From Planctomycetaceae bacterium (lineage in GTDB: Bacteria > Planctomycetota > Planctomycetia > Planctomycetales > Planctomycetaceae), in the NCBI GenBank assembly GCA_028284885.1, contig JANQQW010000352.1:1-48898 (forward strand): a stretch of DNA of 48,898 nt, in the 5' to 3' direction. The notes under the pieces were generated by a model that was not told the origin of the DNA, ran no database searches, and worked only from the letters and a program-made list of their open reading frames with translations. Made by a program: the position numbers and the translations under genes. This document shows positions 3,463 through 23,888 of this stretch, piece after piece (the stretch's first letter is position 1; each line of letters opens with the position of its first letter).

Positions 3463-5610
3463 ATGCACGTGAGACTCACGCTCGCCTCGCTTCTCGTGCT
3501 GCTCGGCACGTCGCTGCTGCCCGCCCAGGACGGGTTCGTCGAGATCTTCGACGGCAAGACACTCGACGGCTGGGACGGCGACCCGAAGTTCTGGTCCGTC
3601 GAGGACGGTGCCATCACCGGCCGCACCACCAAGGAGAACCCGACGAAGGGGAACACGTTCATCGTCTGGGACGGCGAGGTCGGCGACTTCGAGCTCGTGC
3701 TCGACTACAAGATCGTCGGCGGCAACAGCGGCATCCAGTACCGCAGCTTCCGGCTGAAGAACGCTGCCGACAAGTGGCGGATCGGCGGCTACCAGGCCGA
3801 CATCGATTCAAAGGACACCTACAGCGGCATCGTCTACGGCGAACGGGCTCGCGGCATCCTCGTCGGCCGGGGCCAGAAGGGCGTCATCGGCGAGGACGGC
3901 AAGAAGAAGGCCGAGCGGTTCGCCGAGTCCGCCGCCATCCAGGCGAAGATCAAGAAGGAGGACTGGAACACCTACCGCATCGTCGCGGAGGGGAACCACT
4001 TCGTGCAGTACATCAACGGCGTGAAGACGTCCGAGCTGACCGACAACGACGCCGAGGGCGTGGGCAAGCGGATGGCCAAGGGGCTCCTCGCCCTGCAACT
4101 GCACGCCGGCCCGCCGATGGTCGTGCAGTTCAAGAACGTCAAGCTGAAGAAGCTCGACGGCGAGAAGGCGGCCGCCCTGCCGGCGGCGAGGCCCGTTCCC
4201 GGCGTCGCTCCGAATCCGGCACTCGTCGTCCGGATGGACGCCCAAGGCCGGGCGACGGTGGACGGCCGCCTGTTCCGCAACCTGGCCTTCGCCCTCGCCC
4301 CGGTCGCCAACGACGTGCTCGCCAACGGGGTCGTCCTGGAGATCGACCGCAACTGCCCGCACAGCCACGCTGTCGAGGCCGTCAACGCGTGCCGGAAGCG
4401 GGGCGTCGAGAACATCAGGATGACGCTGCTCAACTCCGGTCTCACCGTCGAGTCGGAACAGGGCCGGATCGACGTCTCGCGTGACGGTGCGATCTCCGCC
4501 CGCACCCGCCGAGTCGGCTTCGACTACGCCGACGGCCGTGGCCGCATCTCGCTGCTCGGGATTCCGGTCTTCCGCTTCGGCGGCGAGGAACCGACCGACG
4601 CCGTCGAGGTGCCGGAGGTCGATCTCGGAGCGCCCGCCGAACTCGACCTCGGTGCCGAGGGCTCGTTGGAGGAGTCGTCGATCGAGACCGAGTCGAGCAC
4701 GACGTTCGTCGCGGCCGACGCCCCGAGGAAGATCGTCTTCGTCGCCGGCCGGCAGAGCCACGGGTACGGGGCCCACGAGCACAAGGCGGGCTGCATGCTG
4801 CTGGCCGACCAGCTCGAGAAGTCCGGCCTTCCCGTCGAGACGAAGGTCGTCACCAACGGCTGGCCGGAGGACACGAGCGTCTTCGACGGCGCGAACTGCA
4901 TCGTCGTCTACGCCGACGGCGGCGGCCGGCATCCGTTCCACGCCCACGTCGACGAGGTGGACGCCCTCGCCAAGAAGGGGGTCGGCATCGTCTGCATCCA
5001 CTACGGCGTCGAGGTCCCCAAGGGCAAGTCCGGCGACGCCTTCCTCGAGTGGACCGGCGGGTTCTTCGAGACGAACTGGTCCGTGAACCCCCACTGGGAG
5101 GCCGAGTTCGACGACCTGCCCGACCACCCCACCACGAGCGGCGTGAAGCCGTTCAAGGTCAACGACGAGTGGTACTACCACATGCGGTTCCGGGAGGAAG
5201 GCGTCACGCCGATCCTCACCGACCTCCCGCCGAAGAGCACGCTGGTGAAGCCGGACGGCTCGCTGGCCCGGCCCGACAACGCCCACAACAACAACCCGCA
5301 CGTCCGCAAGGCGATCCTGGAGCGGATGGAGCCACAACACGTCGCGTGGGCCCGCGAGCGGGAGGACGGCGGCCGCGGCTTCGGCATCACCGGCGGTCAC
5401 TTCCACTGGAACTGGGGCAACGACCAGATGCGGAAGCTGATGCTCAACGCGATCGTCTGGTCGGCCGGCATGGACGTCCCGGCCGAGGGCGTCCCCACGC
5501 AGCCCGTCAGCGTGGAGAACCTGATGGCCAACCAGGACTACGACGTGCCGAAGAGCTTCAACCCGGTCCGCTACGAGATGCTGCTCAAGCAGTGGAACGG
5601 GGCGAACTGA
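3463..5610 (+). CDS. Secreted DUF1080 (3-keto-disaccharide hydrolase-like) - ExbD-like - ThuA fusion
   Basis: 715 residues from the ATG at 3463, with GGAG six bases upstream and a Sec signal peptide (residues 1 to about 20, ending LLPAQ). Residues about 22-235 are DUF1080, starting 'FVEIFDGKTLDGW'; this is a concanavalin-like fold found in 3-keto-glycoside hydrolases. Residues about 250-330 match the periplasmic ExbD/TolR pattern: beta strand, 'VVLEIDRNCPHSHAVEAV', then a G-V-E-N-I turn. Residues about 420-670 are ThuA, a glutamine-amidotransferase-like fold ('RKIVFVAGRQSHGYG', 'ITGGHFHWNW'), a family linked to trehalose and keto-sugar use. The expected role is periplasmic sugar catabolism. 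DUF1080 and ThuA are often partners, but the middle domain is unexpected. Domain calls are from motif reading only. Confidence 0.9.
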   Translation: MHVRLTLASLLVLLGTSLLPAQDGFVEIFDGKTLDGWDGDPKFWSVEDGAITGRTTKENPTKGNTFIVWDGEVGDFELVLDYKIVGGNSGIQYRSFRLKNAADKWRIGGYQADIDSKDTYSGIVYGERARGILVGRGQKGVIGEDGKKKAERFAESAAIQAKIKKEDWNTYRIVAEGNHFVQYINGVKTSELTDNDAEGVGKRMAKGLLALQLHAGPPMVVQFKNVKLKKLDGEKAAALPAARPVPGVAPNPALVVRMDAQGRATVDGRLFRNLAFALAPVANDVLANGVVLEIDRNCPHSHAVEAVNACRKRGVENIRMTLLNSGLTVESEQGRIDVSRDGAISARTRRVGFDYADGRGRISLLGIPVFRFGGEEPTDAVEVPEVDLGAPAELDLGAEGSLEESSIETESSTTFVAADAPRKIVFVAGRQSHGYGAHEHKAGCMLLADQLEKSGLPVETKVVTNGWPEDTSVFDGANCIVVYADGGGRHPFHAHVDEVDALAKKGVGIVCIHYGVEVPKGKSGDAFLEWTGGFFETNWSVNPHWEAEFDDLPDHPTTSGVKPFKVNDEWYYHMRFREEGVTPILTDLPPKSTLVKPDGSLARPDNAHNNNPHVRKAILERMEPQHVAWAREREDGGRGFGITGGHFHWNWGNDQMRKLMLNAIVWSAGMDVPAEGVPTQPVSVENLMANQDYDVPKSFNPVRYEMLLKQWNGAN

Positions 5611-19573: not shown

Positions 19574-20683
19574 TCAGTCCACGACCGACGTCGGGGGCGG
19601 CTTCGGGCGGTTGGGATCCACGGGTTGCGGCGGACGCGGCGGCGGGATCTTGTATCCCGCGACGTAGACGTCCTTGTCGGACTTCAGGTTCACGCGGTAG
19701 GTGTCGTTGGGGTTGTACGGTTCCCACCCGGCCGTGAGGCCGAGGGTCGCCGCGACGTTTCGGGCCGCGATGTACGTCTCGAAACTGTCCGGCCAGACGC
19801 GGAAGCGGAAGTAGACCGGCTTGTCGCGGTACCGTCGGGCGATCGTGCCGAAGCTCCGTTCGATCTTCTCCGTCTCGATGCCGACGTCGTCGTCGCGCGG
19901 CACGAACGAGAACTGCGGCCGCCCGCCCGAGACGGCGATCTTCACGCGGAACTGCCGGTCGGCGACGGTCTTCTCCTCGAAGTACTCCTTCAACTTGTCC
20001 GCATCGACCCGCACGCGCTTGTCGCTGTCCGGGTCGGGGGCGAATCCGAGCTGCCGAGCGCTCCGGGAGATCTCCGCGAGCGCCCGGCTCTCGAGCTGGT
20101 CGAGCCCGTCCATCGGGATCAGTCGGCCCCCCTTCAGCATGAACTCGACCGCCTCCGCCTTCGGCGGGGCGGGCCGGGGGTCGGGCATGTTGACGATCTT
20201 CGCGTCCGGGTCCGGGCCCTGCGGCGTCTCCGCGAGCCGCGCCTTCAGCGAGGCGATTTCGTTCGACTTCGACTCGATCGACGCGAGCAAACTCTGCTCG
20301 GCCATCCGCTTCTCCTCGAGGTCCTTCTGCAGCCGGGCCGCGTCGATCTTCTCGTCGCGGAGCGCCGCCAGCTCCTTCTCGAGTTCGGCGATCAGCTCCT
20401 GCACCCGTTCGAAGTCGAGGTCGGCCGACTGGGCCTCGGCGGCCTTCAACTCCTGCTCGAGCTTCGTCTTCGCCAGCAGTTCCTCGATCTGCTCGGCCTC
20501 GGCCTTCGCGTCTTCGAGTTCCTCGACGGTGACGAGCCCCGTGATCCGCTTGACCGCCTGCCGCACGCCGAGCTGCGTCACGATGAGGATGATCACGAGG
20601 ATGCCGACGACGTTGGTCATCGTGTCGAGCAGCGAGTCGAGACTCGCGCCGCCGGACCCCGAGGACTTTCGCTTCCTGGCCAT
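19574..20683 (-). CDS. ExbD/MotB-like single-TM coiled-coil protein (second partner of the channel operon)
   Basis: 369 residues from the ATG at 20683, preceded by GGGGGAG. After a basic N-terminus comes one TM helix with an acidic residue at its mouth: 'SLDSLLDTMTNVVGILVIIL'. This resembles the ExbD/TolR/MotB helix in which Asp takes the proton. Residues about 55-165 form a long coiled coil. The C-terminal 180 residues are a separate periplasmic domain ending 'PVYFRFRVWPDSFETYIAAR' and 'AGWEPYN', followed by a proline-rich tail. No OmpA-type peptidoglycan motif is visible. It is the last gene of the operon, three bases after the other partner. I infer a stator-like subunit; the load it drives is unknown. 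Confidence 0.8.
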   Translation of the reverse strand: MARKRKSSGSGGASLDSLLDTMTNVVGILVIILIVTQLGVRQAVKRITGLVTVEELEDAKAEAEQIEELLAKTKLEQELKAAEAQSADLDFERVQELIAELEKELAALRDEKIDAARLQKDLEEKRMAEQSLLASIESKSNEIASLKARLAETPQGPDPDAKIVNMPDPRPAPPKAEAVEFMLKGGRLIPMDGLDQLESRALAEISRSARQLGFAPDPDSDKRVRVDADKLKEYFEEKTVADRQFRVKIAVSGGRPQFSFVPRDDDVGIETEKIERSFGTIARRYRDKPVYFRFRVWPDSFETYIAARNVAATLGLTAGWEPYNPNDTYRVNLKSDKDVYVAGYKIPPPRPPQPVDPNRPKPPPTSVVD

Positions 20684-20686
20684 GGC

Positions 20687-21490
20687 CTACTCCCCCCGGA
20701 AGAGGCTGAGGTCGATCTTGCCCTGCCCGACGATGGGCAGCTTGCCGTACTTGGCATAGCCGGCGGGGCCGTAGTGCGTTCGGCAGACGTACTTCGCCGT
20801 GCCGAACGTGCCGATGCCGTCCTCGCGGAGCAGGAAGATGATGATCCCCTTCGGCGTCGCGGCGACCTTCTCGACGAGGGCGTGGAACTCGCCCCCCTTG
20901 CGGTTGAGGTCGCCCCGCCGGACGACCTTCGGCTCCGGTCCGTCGTTGATGACGACGTCGCCGGCGCGGACCTCGACGAAGGTCGGCTCCATGTCGACGC
21001 CGCTGCCGCCCGGCCGCACGACGACCTCGGCCTCCTTCGGCTTGCCCGCGTCGGCCACCTGCTTCTTCAGGTTCGCGATCTCCTCGTCGAGACCGGGCAC
21101 GTCCATCTCCAACTCGGTGATGCGCTCCCGCAGGCGGTTGATCTCTGCGAGCTCGTCGGCGAACTCCCCGGCGGACTCGGCCTCCTCGGCCCGCTCCTCC
21201 TTGAGTCGCTCGATCTCGGCCTTCGCGTCCTCGAGCGTCTTCAGTCGGTCCTCGGCGTCGGCAAGCAGCGCCTTGAGTTCCTCGAGGCGTTCGAGGTCCT
21301 CCAGAACCTGCTCGTCGATCTCGGCGACTGCCTCCTTCCGATCCTGCGCCTCGGGCGACTCCCCTTCGTTGATCGCTCCGAGCGAGACGGCCATCACCAT
21401 CAGCGTGAGCGAGCCGATCAGACAGGCGAGAATGCTGAGGAACGGGAACAGCGAGACCGCCTCCCCGTCCTCCTTCCGTCGTCGTGCCAC
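20687..21490 (-). CDS. Single-TM coiled-coil partner protein of the channel operon (ExbD/MotB-like, no TM aspartate)
   Basis: 267 residues from a GTG start three bases after the Uma2 stop. The single TM helix near residues 12-37 ('SLFPFLSILACLIGSLTLMV') lacks the acidic residue seen in the next protein. A coiled coil follows to about residue 150, then a compact C-terminal domain with 'HALVEKVAATPKGIIIFLLR' and 'YGKLPIVGQGKIDLSLF', loosely like the ExbD periplasmic fold. Size and layout parallel the downstream protein but the sequences differ, so the two may form a heteromeric plug for the MotA-like channel. This is inferred from topology and operon position, not from a close family match. Confidence 0.78.
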   Translation of the reverse strand: MARRRKEDGEAVSLFPFLSILACLIGSLTLMVMAVSLGAINEGESPEAQDRKEAVAEIDEQVLEDLERLEELKALLADAEDRLKTLEDAKAEIERLKEERAEEAESAGEFADELAEINRLRERITELEMDVPGLDEEIANLKKQVADAGKPKEAEVVVRPGGSGVDMEPTFVEVRAGDVVINDGPEPKVVRRGDLNRKGGEFHALVEKVAATPKGIIIFLLREDGIGTFGTAKYVCRTHYGPAGYAKYGKLPIVGQGKIDLSLFRGE

Positions 21491-21493
21491 GGT

Positions 21494-22174
21494 TCAGTCC
21501 CCCGTACTCGAAGAGTCGTCCTCACCGAGCAACCGCTTCAGTCGGTCGATCTCCGCTTCCGCAACCTCTCGGGCACGTCGCTCCTTCTCCACCTGCCGTT
21601 GCTCCGCCTCCCAGCGCTCCAGCAAGACCTCACCGGTGACGGCATCACGCAGAACGAGTTCCCCCGCCTCACGGGCCAGCGTGACGCCGAGTTCCCGACA
21701 GTCGAGCCGCCCGTCTTCGTTCAGCGGGATCGGCTCGTAGGCGTCCCCGTCGAGACGGAACCCCTGCAGCGGCGGCAACAGGTAGTCGGACGTCGGGTCG
21801 AACAGGAAGTACTCCCGCACGCCGATCGCGGCGTAGACCTGCGGCTTCACCCCCTCGTCGCGTCTCTTCGTGCTCGAAGACGTCACCTCGAACACGACGT
21901 TCGGGGCGCCCTCCTCCCACGTCTTGTAGACGCGACGTCGGCCGGGGTCCTTGTCGAGGACGACGAAGGCGTCGGGCGAGACGTGCTTGTACGGGACGCC
22001 CTCCTCGTAGTAGAGCAGCAGGTTCCCGGAGACGTAGACGTGCTGGTCCCGGTACCGCTCCTTGAACAGCTCGATCAGGCGGATCATCAAGTCGCGGTGC
22101 AGATCCGTTTCGCCCATCGGCTCCCCGTCCGACTCGGGATACTCGACTTCGATCGACTTGGCCGACTCGACCAT
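21494..22174 (-). CDS. Uma2 family (DUF820, restriction-endonuclease-like fold) protein
   Basis: 226 residues from the ATG at 22174, with GGGAG upstream. Hallmarks are 'HVYVSGNLLLYY', 'VSPDAFVVLD', 'PNVVFEVTSSSTKRRD' and 'YAAIGVREYFLFDP'. The Asp of S-P-D, the Glu of F-E-V and the later Lys correspond to the PD-(D/E)xK-type core. The last 45 residues form a Glu/Arg-rich coiled tail, common in Uma2 proteins of planctomycetes and cyanobacteria. Function is uncertain; nuclease activity is predicted for the fold. It sits inside the channel operon, 13 bases after the MotA-like gene and 3 before the next, which is unusual. Confidence 0.9.
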   Translation of the reverse strand: MVESAKSIEVEYPESDGEPMGETDLHRDLMIRLIELFKERYRDQHVYVSGNLLLYYEEGVPYKHVSPDAFVVLDKDPGRRRVYKTWEEGAPNVVFEVTSSSTKRRDEGVKPQVYAAIGVREYFLFDPTSDYLLPPLQGFRLDGDAYEPIPLNEDGRLDCRELGVTLAREAGELVLRDAVTGEVLLERWEAEQRQVEKERRAREVAEAEIDRLKRLLGEDDSSSTGD

Positions 22175-22187
22175 CGCGACGCTCCCG

Positions 22188-23684
22188 TCAGTTGCCGTTC
22201 TTTCGGCCGAACAGTCCCCAGCCGCGGCGGGCGGGGGGGTGGACGTGCTGCTCGATCGTCACCTGCTGGCTGCCGAGGTCGACGAGCACCTTGTTGAGCG
22301 CGGAGAGCCCCTCCTGCAGTTCGGAGAGATACCCGGCGACCGCGTTGGCCGAGTGCTTCATCGACGAGGCAACCTCGCCCTGCACGGTCTCGGTCTTCTC
22401 GGCGAGCGTGGTCATCGTCTTGCCGAGTTCCTCGGCCGTTCGCGCGGCCTCCTGCTGCCGGTCCTTCACACCGCCGTCGATCTCGTTGAAGCCCTTGACG
22501 ACCTCCTTGGTGATCTTGCCGCCGATCGCCTCGAGCTTCTTCGACCAGGACGCGAGTTCCGCGTGGTGTCGGGCGAGTGCCGCGTCGATCGACCGGCGGA
22601 GCGCCGCGTCGTCGATGCCGTCCGACGACACGCCGACCGCGTCCGCCTTGCCGTCCTTCAGCCGCCGCAGCAGGTTCTCGTTGCAGTACTCGGAGACCCA
22701 GTTCAGCAGGTCCTCCTCGGCCTTCTGCATGCTGCTGGCGGGGAACATCACGAAGATGCTCATCACGAGGGCGACGAGCGTGGTGTCGAACGCGGTGCCG
22801 AGGCCGCCGGTGACCGCCGACAACGACTTCTTGAGTTCCTCGACGTCCGAGGCGTCCGCCGAGAAGCCGCCGACGGCCGCGCTGATGCCGATGACCGTGC
22901 CGATGAACCCGAGGATCGGGATCGCCCAGATGAACACCTTCAGCAGCGTGTAGCTCGACTCGACGGCGTTCTGGTCGATCTCGGACTGCGACTCCAGCCG
23001 CGAGCTGACCTCGCTGGAGTCCTTCAGCACGCGGAAGTGCTCGAGCCCCCGGAGCACGCGGTTCACGAGGAAGCTCTCGCTCGACTTGGCGGGCAACGAG
23101 CGGACGTGCTCCGCGAACCGGGCGGCGTTGTCCGCGGTGATCGACTTGTCGATGTCGGTCGGCAGCAGGTCGAACAACATCGAGTTCCGCTGCACGGACA
23201 GCTTCCGGAACTTCATGACGAGGATGGCCACCGACCAGGCCATGAAGAACACAAGCACGTACGGCACCCAGCCGCGGGCGACGAACAGGGCGGCGAGGTA
23301 CAGTTCCTGACCGTTCTCCCCGAGCGTCAGGTAGTACAGCGGGACGACGGCTGCGCAGAACAGAGCCGTGCCGATCGCGGCCCAGAGAGCCGAGAGTCCC
23401 AGGCCGACCTCGGTCCCGTCCGTGAAGCTGCCGGTGTCGTGAGACGCCTGCGAGGTGGCGGCGGGCGACGGAGTGGACGCCGGAGCCCCCTTGCGCTTCG
23501 CCTTCTCGACGGAGTCGTCACCGCCCGTGTCGATCTGGAACGGGACGTCGGCGTCCGGTTCGGGCTCCGGCACCTTGACCACCTGCGTTTGCTGGCAGTG
23601 CGGGCACTTCACCTTCTTGCCGGCGTGCTCCTCGCGGACCTTCAGCCGCTTGCCGCAACTCTCACAGACGATTTGGAAGTACAC
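22188..23684 (-). CDS. MotA/TolQ/ExbB family proton channel with N-terminal zinc ribbon
   Basis: 498 residues from a GTG start at 23684. Residues 7-30 form a zinc ribbon (C7xxC10, C27xxC30). Residues about 30-95 are a flexible linker. TM helices lie near 99-120 and 135-158, and the TolQ/ExbB pair near 250-273 ('IPILGFIGTVIGISAAVGGF') and 298-318 ('AFDTTLVALVMSIFVMF'). The conserved G-T-V-x-G and the A-F-D-T-T-L motif are those of MotA/TolQ/ExbB. The last 150 residues are helical and likely coiled ('GKITKEVVKGFNEIDGG'). It should form the proton-conducting ring of an inner-membrane motor with the two downstream TM proteins as partners. It is the first gene of the operon, divergent from the protease gene. 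Confidence 0.9.
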   Translation of the reverse strand: MYFQIVCESCGKRLKVREEHAGKKVKCPHCQQTQVVKVPEPEPDADVPFQIDTGGDDSVEKAKRKGAPASTPSPAATSQASHDTGSFTDGTEVGLGLSALWAAIGTALFCAAVVPLYYLTLGENGQELYLAALFVARGWVPYVLVFFMAWSVAILVMKFRKLSVQRNSMLFDLLPTDIDKSITADNAARFAEHVRSLPAKSSESFLVNRVLRGLEHFRVLKDSSEVSSRLESQSEIDQNAVESSYTLLKVFIWAIPILGFIGTVIGISAAVGGFSADASDVEELKKSLSAVTGGLGTAFDTTLVALVMSIFVMFPASSMQKAEEDLLNWVSEYCNENLLRRLKDGKADAVGVSSDGIDDAALRRSIDAALARHHAELASWSKKLEAIGGKITKEVVKGFNEIDGGVKDRQQEAARTAEELGKTMTTLAEKTETVQGEVASSMKHSANAVAGYLSELQEGLSALNKVLVDLGSQQVTIEQHVHPPARRGWGLFGRKNGN

Positions 23685-23888
23685 GCTGGCCCTCGGGGTC
23701 GAATCTCGGCGGTCGGTGGGTGCTCTCGTCGGTCGCGCACCACGTCGATGATAACGCCGCCGTCAGGCCCTTTCACGCACGTGCCGCGACGACTTTCCCT
23801 CATGCTTGCGACCGGAGGATTCCGATCAACTGGGCACGGACGGCTGCGCTCGACGCGGCCGCCGCGGGCGAGATCAAAACGGAACGGC

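Follow-up and report, generated by a model that had tools for sequence, protein, structure and literature searches.

Current models of 5:2 motors of the ExbB-ExbD and TolQ-TolR type hold that the axle is made of two identical subunits, whose aspartates load in turn. Motors that combine one channel with two partners are also already known, namely AglRQS (PMC9389320, PMC3169522) and a tolQ system of PVC bacteria (PMC12204202). In the AglRQS gliding motor of Myxococcus, one channel and two single-transmembrane (TM) partners are encoded in one operon, and PF02472 is matched by each of the partners, AglQ and AglS (PMC3169522), for which a conserved Asp has been described in both cases (PMC9389320). 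The PVC system, described in 2025, consists of tolQ with paired heterologous tolR genes and TPR and vWA transducers (PMC12204202). The operon analysed here, from a Planctomycetaceae bacterium, likewise encodes one channel (A) and two partners (B and C), and its unusual part is a recurrent Asp/no-Asp asymmetry between the latter.

Organization and conservation of the operon

The window, that is the whole stretch of 48,898 nucleotides that was analysed, contains four tightly packed minus-strand ORFs in the order A, Uma2, B and C, with successive gaps of 13, 3 and 3 bases. Both coordinates and gaps agreed with the initial annotation when the ORFs were checked. The genes, and a candidate promoter, are as follows:

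23748 to 23776, minus strand: candidate promoter preceding A (a single sigma-70-like match where 0.1 would be expected, based on consensus only)
22188 to 23684, minus strand: gene A, MotA/TolQ/ExbB-type channel of 498 aa (PF01618 E 8e-13, orthologue alignment, TM prediction, pore alignment)
21494 to 22174, minus strand: Uma2-family (PF05685) gene between A and B, 226 aa (E 8.6e-19)
20687 to 21490, minus strand: gene B, single-TM partner without a TM Asp, 267 aa (family alignment, AlphaFold2 model)
19574 to 20683, minus strand: gene C, single-TM partner with a TM Asp, 369 aa (family alignment, AlphaFold2 model)

Purine-rich stretches of the GGGAG/GGGGGA type precede the starts of the Uma2, B and C genes. 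The neighbours in the window encode a glycosyltransferase, a glyoxalase, a PIG-L protein and others, and no TolA, TolB or Pal genes lie beside A-B-C. Elsewhere in the window, at 4174-4422, a weak match to an ExbD model falls in a frame of the plus strand that faces a longer ORF on the minus strand, and is probably an artefact.

A search with A retrieved at least 562 relatives in bacterial genomes. The best 80 of these were read as loci and come from Planctomycetota, Verrucomicrobiota, Lentisphaerota, Kiritimatiellota and unnamed bacteria. Nearly all of the long-enough loci among these best 80 of at least 562 carry A, B and C in this order, B being the next gene after A, the exceptions being Gimesia-type loci and locus L082, which have A and B without an adjacent C. 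The recurrence of this order across the fetched loci argues that the operon is not due to chance. Moreover, in genomes sampled across the phylum, close relatives of A (E <1e-80), B (E <1e-30) and C (E <1e-50), separated by a wide score gap from the next matches, were detected in the identical 17 out of 343 genomes at 18 copies each, a raw count in which kinship is ignored and several of the 17 genomes are closely related. Six of the 17, all of one genus (g39) with a Gimesia-like layout, retain C although it is unlinked from A-B, being located 0.66 to 1.4 Mb away or on another contig, among unrelated genes. The co-occurrence of both partners with the channel, a check proposed at the outset, is thus found even where C is unlinked, and such co-conservation without linkage constitutes the strongest evidence for joint action of the three proteins. 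A, B and C are a conserved module of planctomycetes and their relatives.

The initial annotation had treated all four genes as one set, with the Uma2 gene (PF05685) still unidentified, and this part did not hold. In the other loci A and B are separated by no Uma2 gene and, in every case in which B was read, by 248 bases or fewer, and 26 Uma2 places are scattered over the source genome. Because, of the loci examined, only that of the source genome has this gene, the four ORFs do not constitute one set; the Uma2 gene looks like a hitchhiker outside the conserved module, inserted in a manner that keeps the operon packing.

Neither a recurrent Tol-Pal-like neighbour among the best 80 of at least 562 loci nor a recurring vWA or TPR gene beside zinc-ribbon triads was found in the neighbour survey of fetched loci. 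Recurrent neighbours were limited to gene families widespread in these bacteria, among them PQQ propellers, sulfatases and oxidoreductase-like genes. In the loci of Gimesia type and of Roseibacillus type (L074-L078, L145-L153), which represent two distant lineages, the first gene past the operon, just downstream of B or C, is a convergent PQQ beta-propeller gene. A PQQ beta-propeller was considered as the load of an A-B-C motor, and the neighbour evidence was judged too weak.

The channel protein and its two partners

The following parts of A and residues of its partners are referred to below:

23595 to 23666, minus strand: C4 zinc ribbon of A, residues C7, C10, C27 and C30 (Cys alignment; codons checked)
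22896 to 22898, minus strand: A Thr263, aligned with pore Thr148 of E. coli ExbB (pore alignment; codon checked)
22779 to 22781, minus strand: A Thr302, aligned with pore Thr181 of E. coli ExbB (pore alignment; codon checked)
22188 to 22649, minus strand: cytoplasmic coiled tail of A, about residues 346-498 (Apolipoprotein-type coiled-coil match)
21434 to 21436, minus strand: B Ser19, at the position of C Asp20 and the ExbD Asp (hhalign of TM regions, residue counts, codon)
20624 to 20626, minus strand: C Asp20, predicted proton-binding residue (Asp conservation; codon checked)

The description of A as a TolQ/ExbB-type channel with a C4 zinc ribbon and a coiled tail was upheld on each count. 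The protein matches PF01618 with 48.7 bits (curated cut-off 22.9), the four cysteines of its CxxC-x16-CxxC motif are invariant in 10 relatives, and the tail, which varies in length between orthologues, gives a coiled-coil match. None of the Pfam zinc-ribbon models reached its cut-off on A, Zn_ribbon_4 coming below cut-off with E 0.0009. In an alignment of 20 triad channels to E. coli ExbB, both pore Thr positions are kept in 20 of 20; Pro256 of A is likewise kept. Hydropathy predicts four TM helices, which would place the zinc ribbon on the cytoplasmic side, provided that the pore helices are oriented like those of ExbB. A resembles ExbB and TolQ in being a PF01618 channel with two pore threonines and the proline, whereas its four predicted TM helices, its putatively cytoplasmic N-terminal zinc ribbon and its coiled tail set it apart. 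Sequence searches of solved structures with A returned mostly coiled-coil matches, and its profile hit 7zok, the match to GltJ/AgmX of Myxococcus, only at E 0.08. GltJ/AgmX likewise has an N-terminal zinc ribbon but is not known to be a PF01618 channel; its similarity to A does not extend beyond the ribbon and is not significant.

B and C each have one TM helix near the N-terminus, and, as first noted, both are single-TM coiled-coil proteins of which only C has an Asp at the start of the TM helix (D20, and also D16), with Ser19 in B. They had been presented as two unlike partners. This is true only superficially, as comparison of the family profiles with hhalign gave E 1.3e-18 over 243 columns, indicating that they are paralogues with matching layouts. 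This whole-length score may be inflated by coiled coil, but the TM regions by themselves, in which Ser19 of B is aligned to Asp20 of C, still gave E 1.1e-6, and the periplasmic domains by themselves E 3.5e-6. A correlation between the coil lengths of B and C (Spearman 0.64, 54 systems) vanished with phylogenetically independent pairs and was thus not used as evidence.

None of the Pfam and NCBIfam models searched gives B or C a name; they returned only weak coiled-coil and other unrelated matches. PF02472 matched neither protein up to E 1 and no B or C place in a six-frame search, and the family lists of 40 C proteins do not include it. Similarity of the B and C profiles to a local ExbD profile was undetectable by hhalign, and sequence searches of solved structures with the two proteins gave coiled-coil matches only.

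AlphaFold2 models of B and C (pLDDT 84.6 each) share a common plan of a TM helix, helices of 58 and 38 residues (46-103 and 110-147 in B, 53-110 and 115-152 in C) and an alpha/beta domain. For C, the best Foldseek match was TolR (5by4, E 0.014), and VIA-align placed TolR 5by4 first (Z 6.6) and ExbD 8vgd second (Z 5.9; superposition with rmsd 2.4 over 67 of 72 residues). For B, TolR 5by4 appeared at rank 39 (Z 7.4, rmsd 3.1 over 86 residues, on residues 159-254) in a list otherwise filled by helical-arm matches. All these Z values are below 8, a range that common arrangements can reach; they count for more here, as it is with TolR or ExbD that a PF01618 channel would be expected to pair. Among solved structures, the predicted periplasmic fold of C thus appears closest to TolR and ExbD, which holds more weakly for B. 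Together with its TM Asp, this would liken C to the axle subunits of ExbB-ExbD and TolQ-TolR; unlike those, B and C have diverged from each other, match no ExbD model and carry long helical arms.

The initial annotation had also set the operon apart from the standard Tol, Exb, Mot and Zorya systems, and the lack of PF02472 matches, of Tol-Pal genes and, among the neighbours scanned, of ZorB, ZorC and ZorD agrees with this. AglRQS follows the same scheme, its operon combining a channel gene with genes for two single-TM proteins, but differs in that its partners match PF02472 and both have the Asp that B usually lacks. The PVC tolQ/tolR pairs resemble A-B-C in comprising one channel and two unlike partners in PVC bacteria; the zinc-ribbon triads differ in having no recurrent vWA or TPR neighbour, and some of the tolR pairs may belong to the same family (PMC12204202).

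Distribution of the aspartate in B and C

It had been proposed to check whether the Asp of the protein encoded at 19574-20683 is invariant, and the alignment gave a TM Asp in 61 of 61 zinc-ribbon-type C proteins, two of which were missed by a regular expression and read by eye. At the aligned position, zinc-ribbon-type B proteins (n=76) have Ser in 70 cases, Ala in 1 and Asp in 5. In a long-B sister subfamily, present in many of the relatives examined, this position of B (n=18) is Ala in 15 and Thr in 3, and C has the Asp; here B measures 552-857 aa and C about 335-433 aa. In a short-A subfamily, by contrast, B has Asp in 4 of 4 systems and also in the copy of the source genome itself. A tree of the channel core divides the five zinc-ribbon systems with Asp in B into two separate, fully supported groups, with the short-A systems as a third; the B position changes twice within the zinc-ribbon rows, in a tree that gives no direction for these changes (gain versus loss). 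The presence of Asp in B of two small zinc-ribbon clades and of the short-A subfamily means that the one-Asp state is not universal. A DNA pattern search for the B motif gave noise only.

Most ordinary ExbB loci of 13 planctomycete genomes have two ExbD genes after ExbB. The Asp is present in each ExbD-like TM helix that was read there with the canonical motif, some loci yielding one call or none. Doubled partners are therefore common in these bacteria, and it is the absence of the Asp from one of them that marks the A-B-C family. The literature searched, which was incomplete, contained no account of a partner pair in which one member has the Asp and the other lacks it.

The short-A triad of the source genome (L221, G000:C114:9500-15000) has an A gene with an in-frame TAG and may be broken or reflect a sequencing error; its operon includes a GYF_2-TM-vWA protein. 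GYF_2-domain proteins also flank 4 of 4 other short-A triads read (L222, L223, L224, L227), and the GYF_2 protein is a possible cytoplasmic adaptor of this subfamily. A long-B triad (L051, G000:C347) is present in the source genome as well, so that all three subfamilies occur in one organism.

A proposed motor with a heterodimeric axle

We consider it somewhat better than an even bet that A-B-C is an inner-membrane motor of the MotA/TolQ/ExbB type, driven by the proton motive force, with a ring of five A subunits, a B:C axle and mainly one Asp. For such a motor we infer the 5:1:1 stoichiometry, proton flow, rotation and a load. Five A subunits would surround one B and one C, the latter two forming a heterodimer of ExbD/TolR-like paralogues in which C alone would normally offer a protonatable Asp. 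Passage of protons by way of C Asp20 and the ring threonines would make ring and axle turn relative to each other, a path rendered plausible by the conservation of Thr263, Thr302 and Pro256 of A. Compared with a two-Asp axle, proton passage would be about half as frequent per turn. The motion would reach a periplasmic or cell-wall target through B and C, by way of their helical arms and TolR-like domains, and a cytoplasmic target through the zinc ribbon and coiled tail of A.

The placement of B is what separates this proposal from the first alternative, in which the motor would be formed by A and a C homodimer, and B would never enter the pore but act as a side-bound load arm or regulator in the manner of TonB or TolA. 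The Asp is indeed absent from nearly all zinc-ribbon and all long-B B proteins, B but not C is greatly enlarged in the long-B subfamily, and in Gimesia-type genomes it is B that remains with A while C moves. Nevertheless, B is a paralogue of C across both TM and periplasmic domain, and in several lineages it carries an Asp at the corresponding position. A helix bound at the side would have no use for this residue; its occurrence argues that the TM helix of B sits inside the ring, where the Asp would be usable. Furthermore, the B TM consensus SLFPFLSILACVIGVLTLMI contains no His, so the SHLS-type signature of TonB and TolA (PMC12204202) is missing. On balance we regard this alternative as unlikely.

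Separate B and C homodimers on a common type of ring, with a conducting A-C and a silent or regulatory A-B complex, appear more improbable still. A possibility of this kind has been raised for AglRQ and AglRS (PMC9389320), and paralogues such as B and C would be able to fit the same ring; strict one-to-one co-occurrence of B and C at equal copy numbers speaks against it, as does the fact that an Asp-less B homodimer should not conduct. Finally, a single four-gene system with Uma2 as a working part, for instance the nuclease effector of a Zorya-like defence, is scarcely credible: the tight packing in the window and the weak match of A to ZorA models (PADLOC E 2.3e-9) would fit it, but the other loci lack Uma2 between A and B, Uma2 genes are scattered over the genome, and no MotB/OmpA-type ZorB, ZorC, ZorD or ZorE was found among the operon genes and scanned neighbours. 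A long cytoplasmic tail is a feature that A shares with the channel of Zorya ZorAB.

We therefore infer that the heteromeric B:C plug suggested in the initial annotation is the best reading. By extension, we tentatively propose, at slightly less than even confidence, that stator-type motors with an obligate heterodimeric axle exist PVC-wide, that one Asp has been replaced in them, with a change of state more than once, and that one- and two-Asp versions occur. A-B-C triads are present in many PVC genomes. With one working and one silent axle site, and with sister clades that have two sites, they would offer a natural experiment on whether a motor needs two sites, which also bears on step size relative to site number and on whether the asymmetry serves the regulation or the coupling of the motor.
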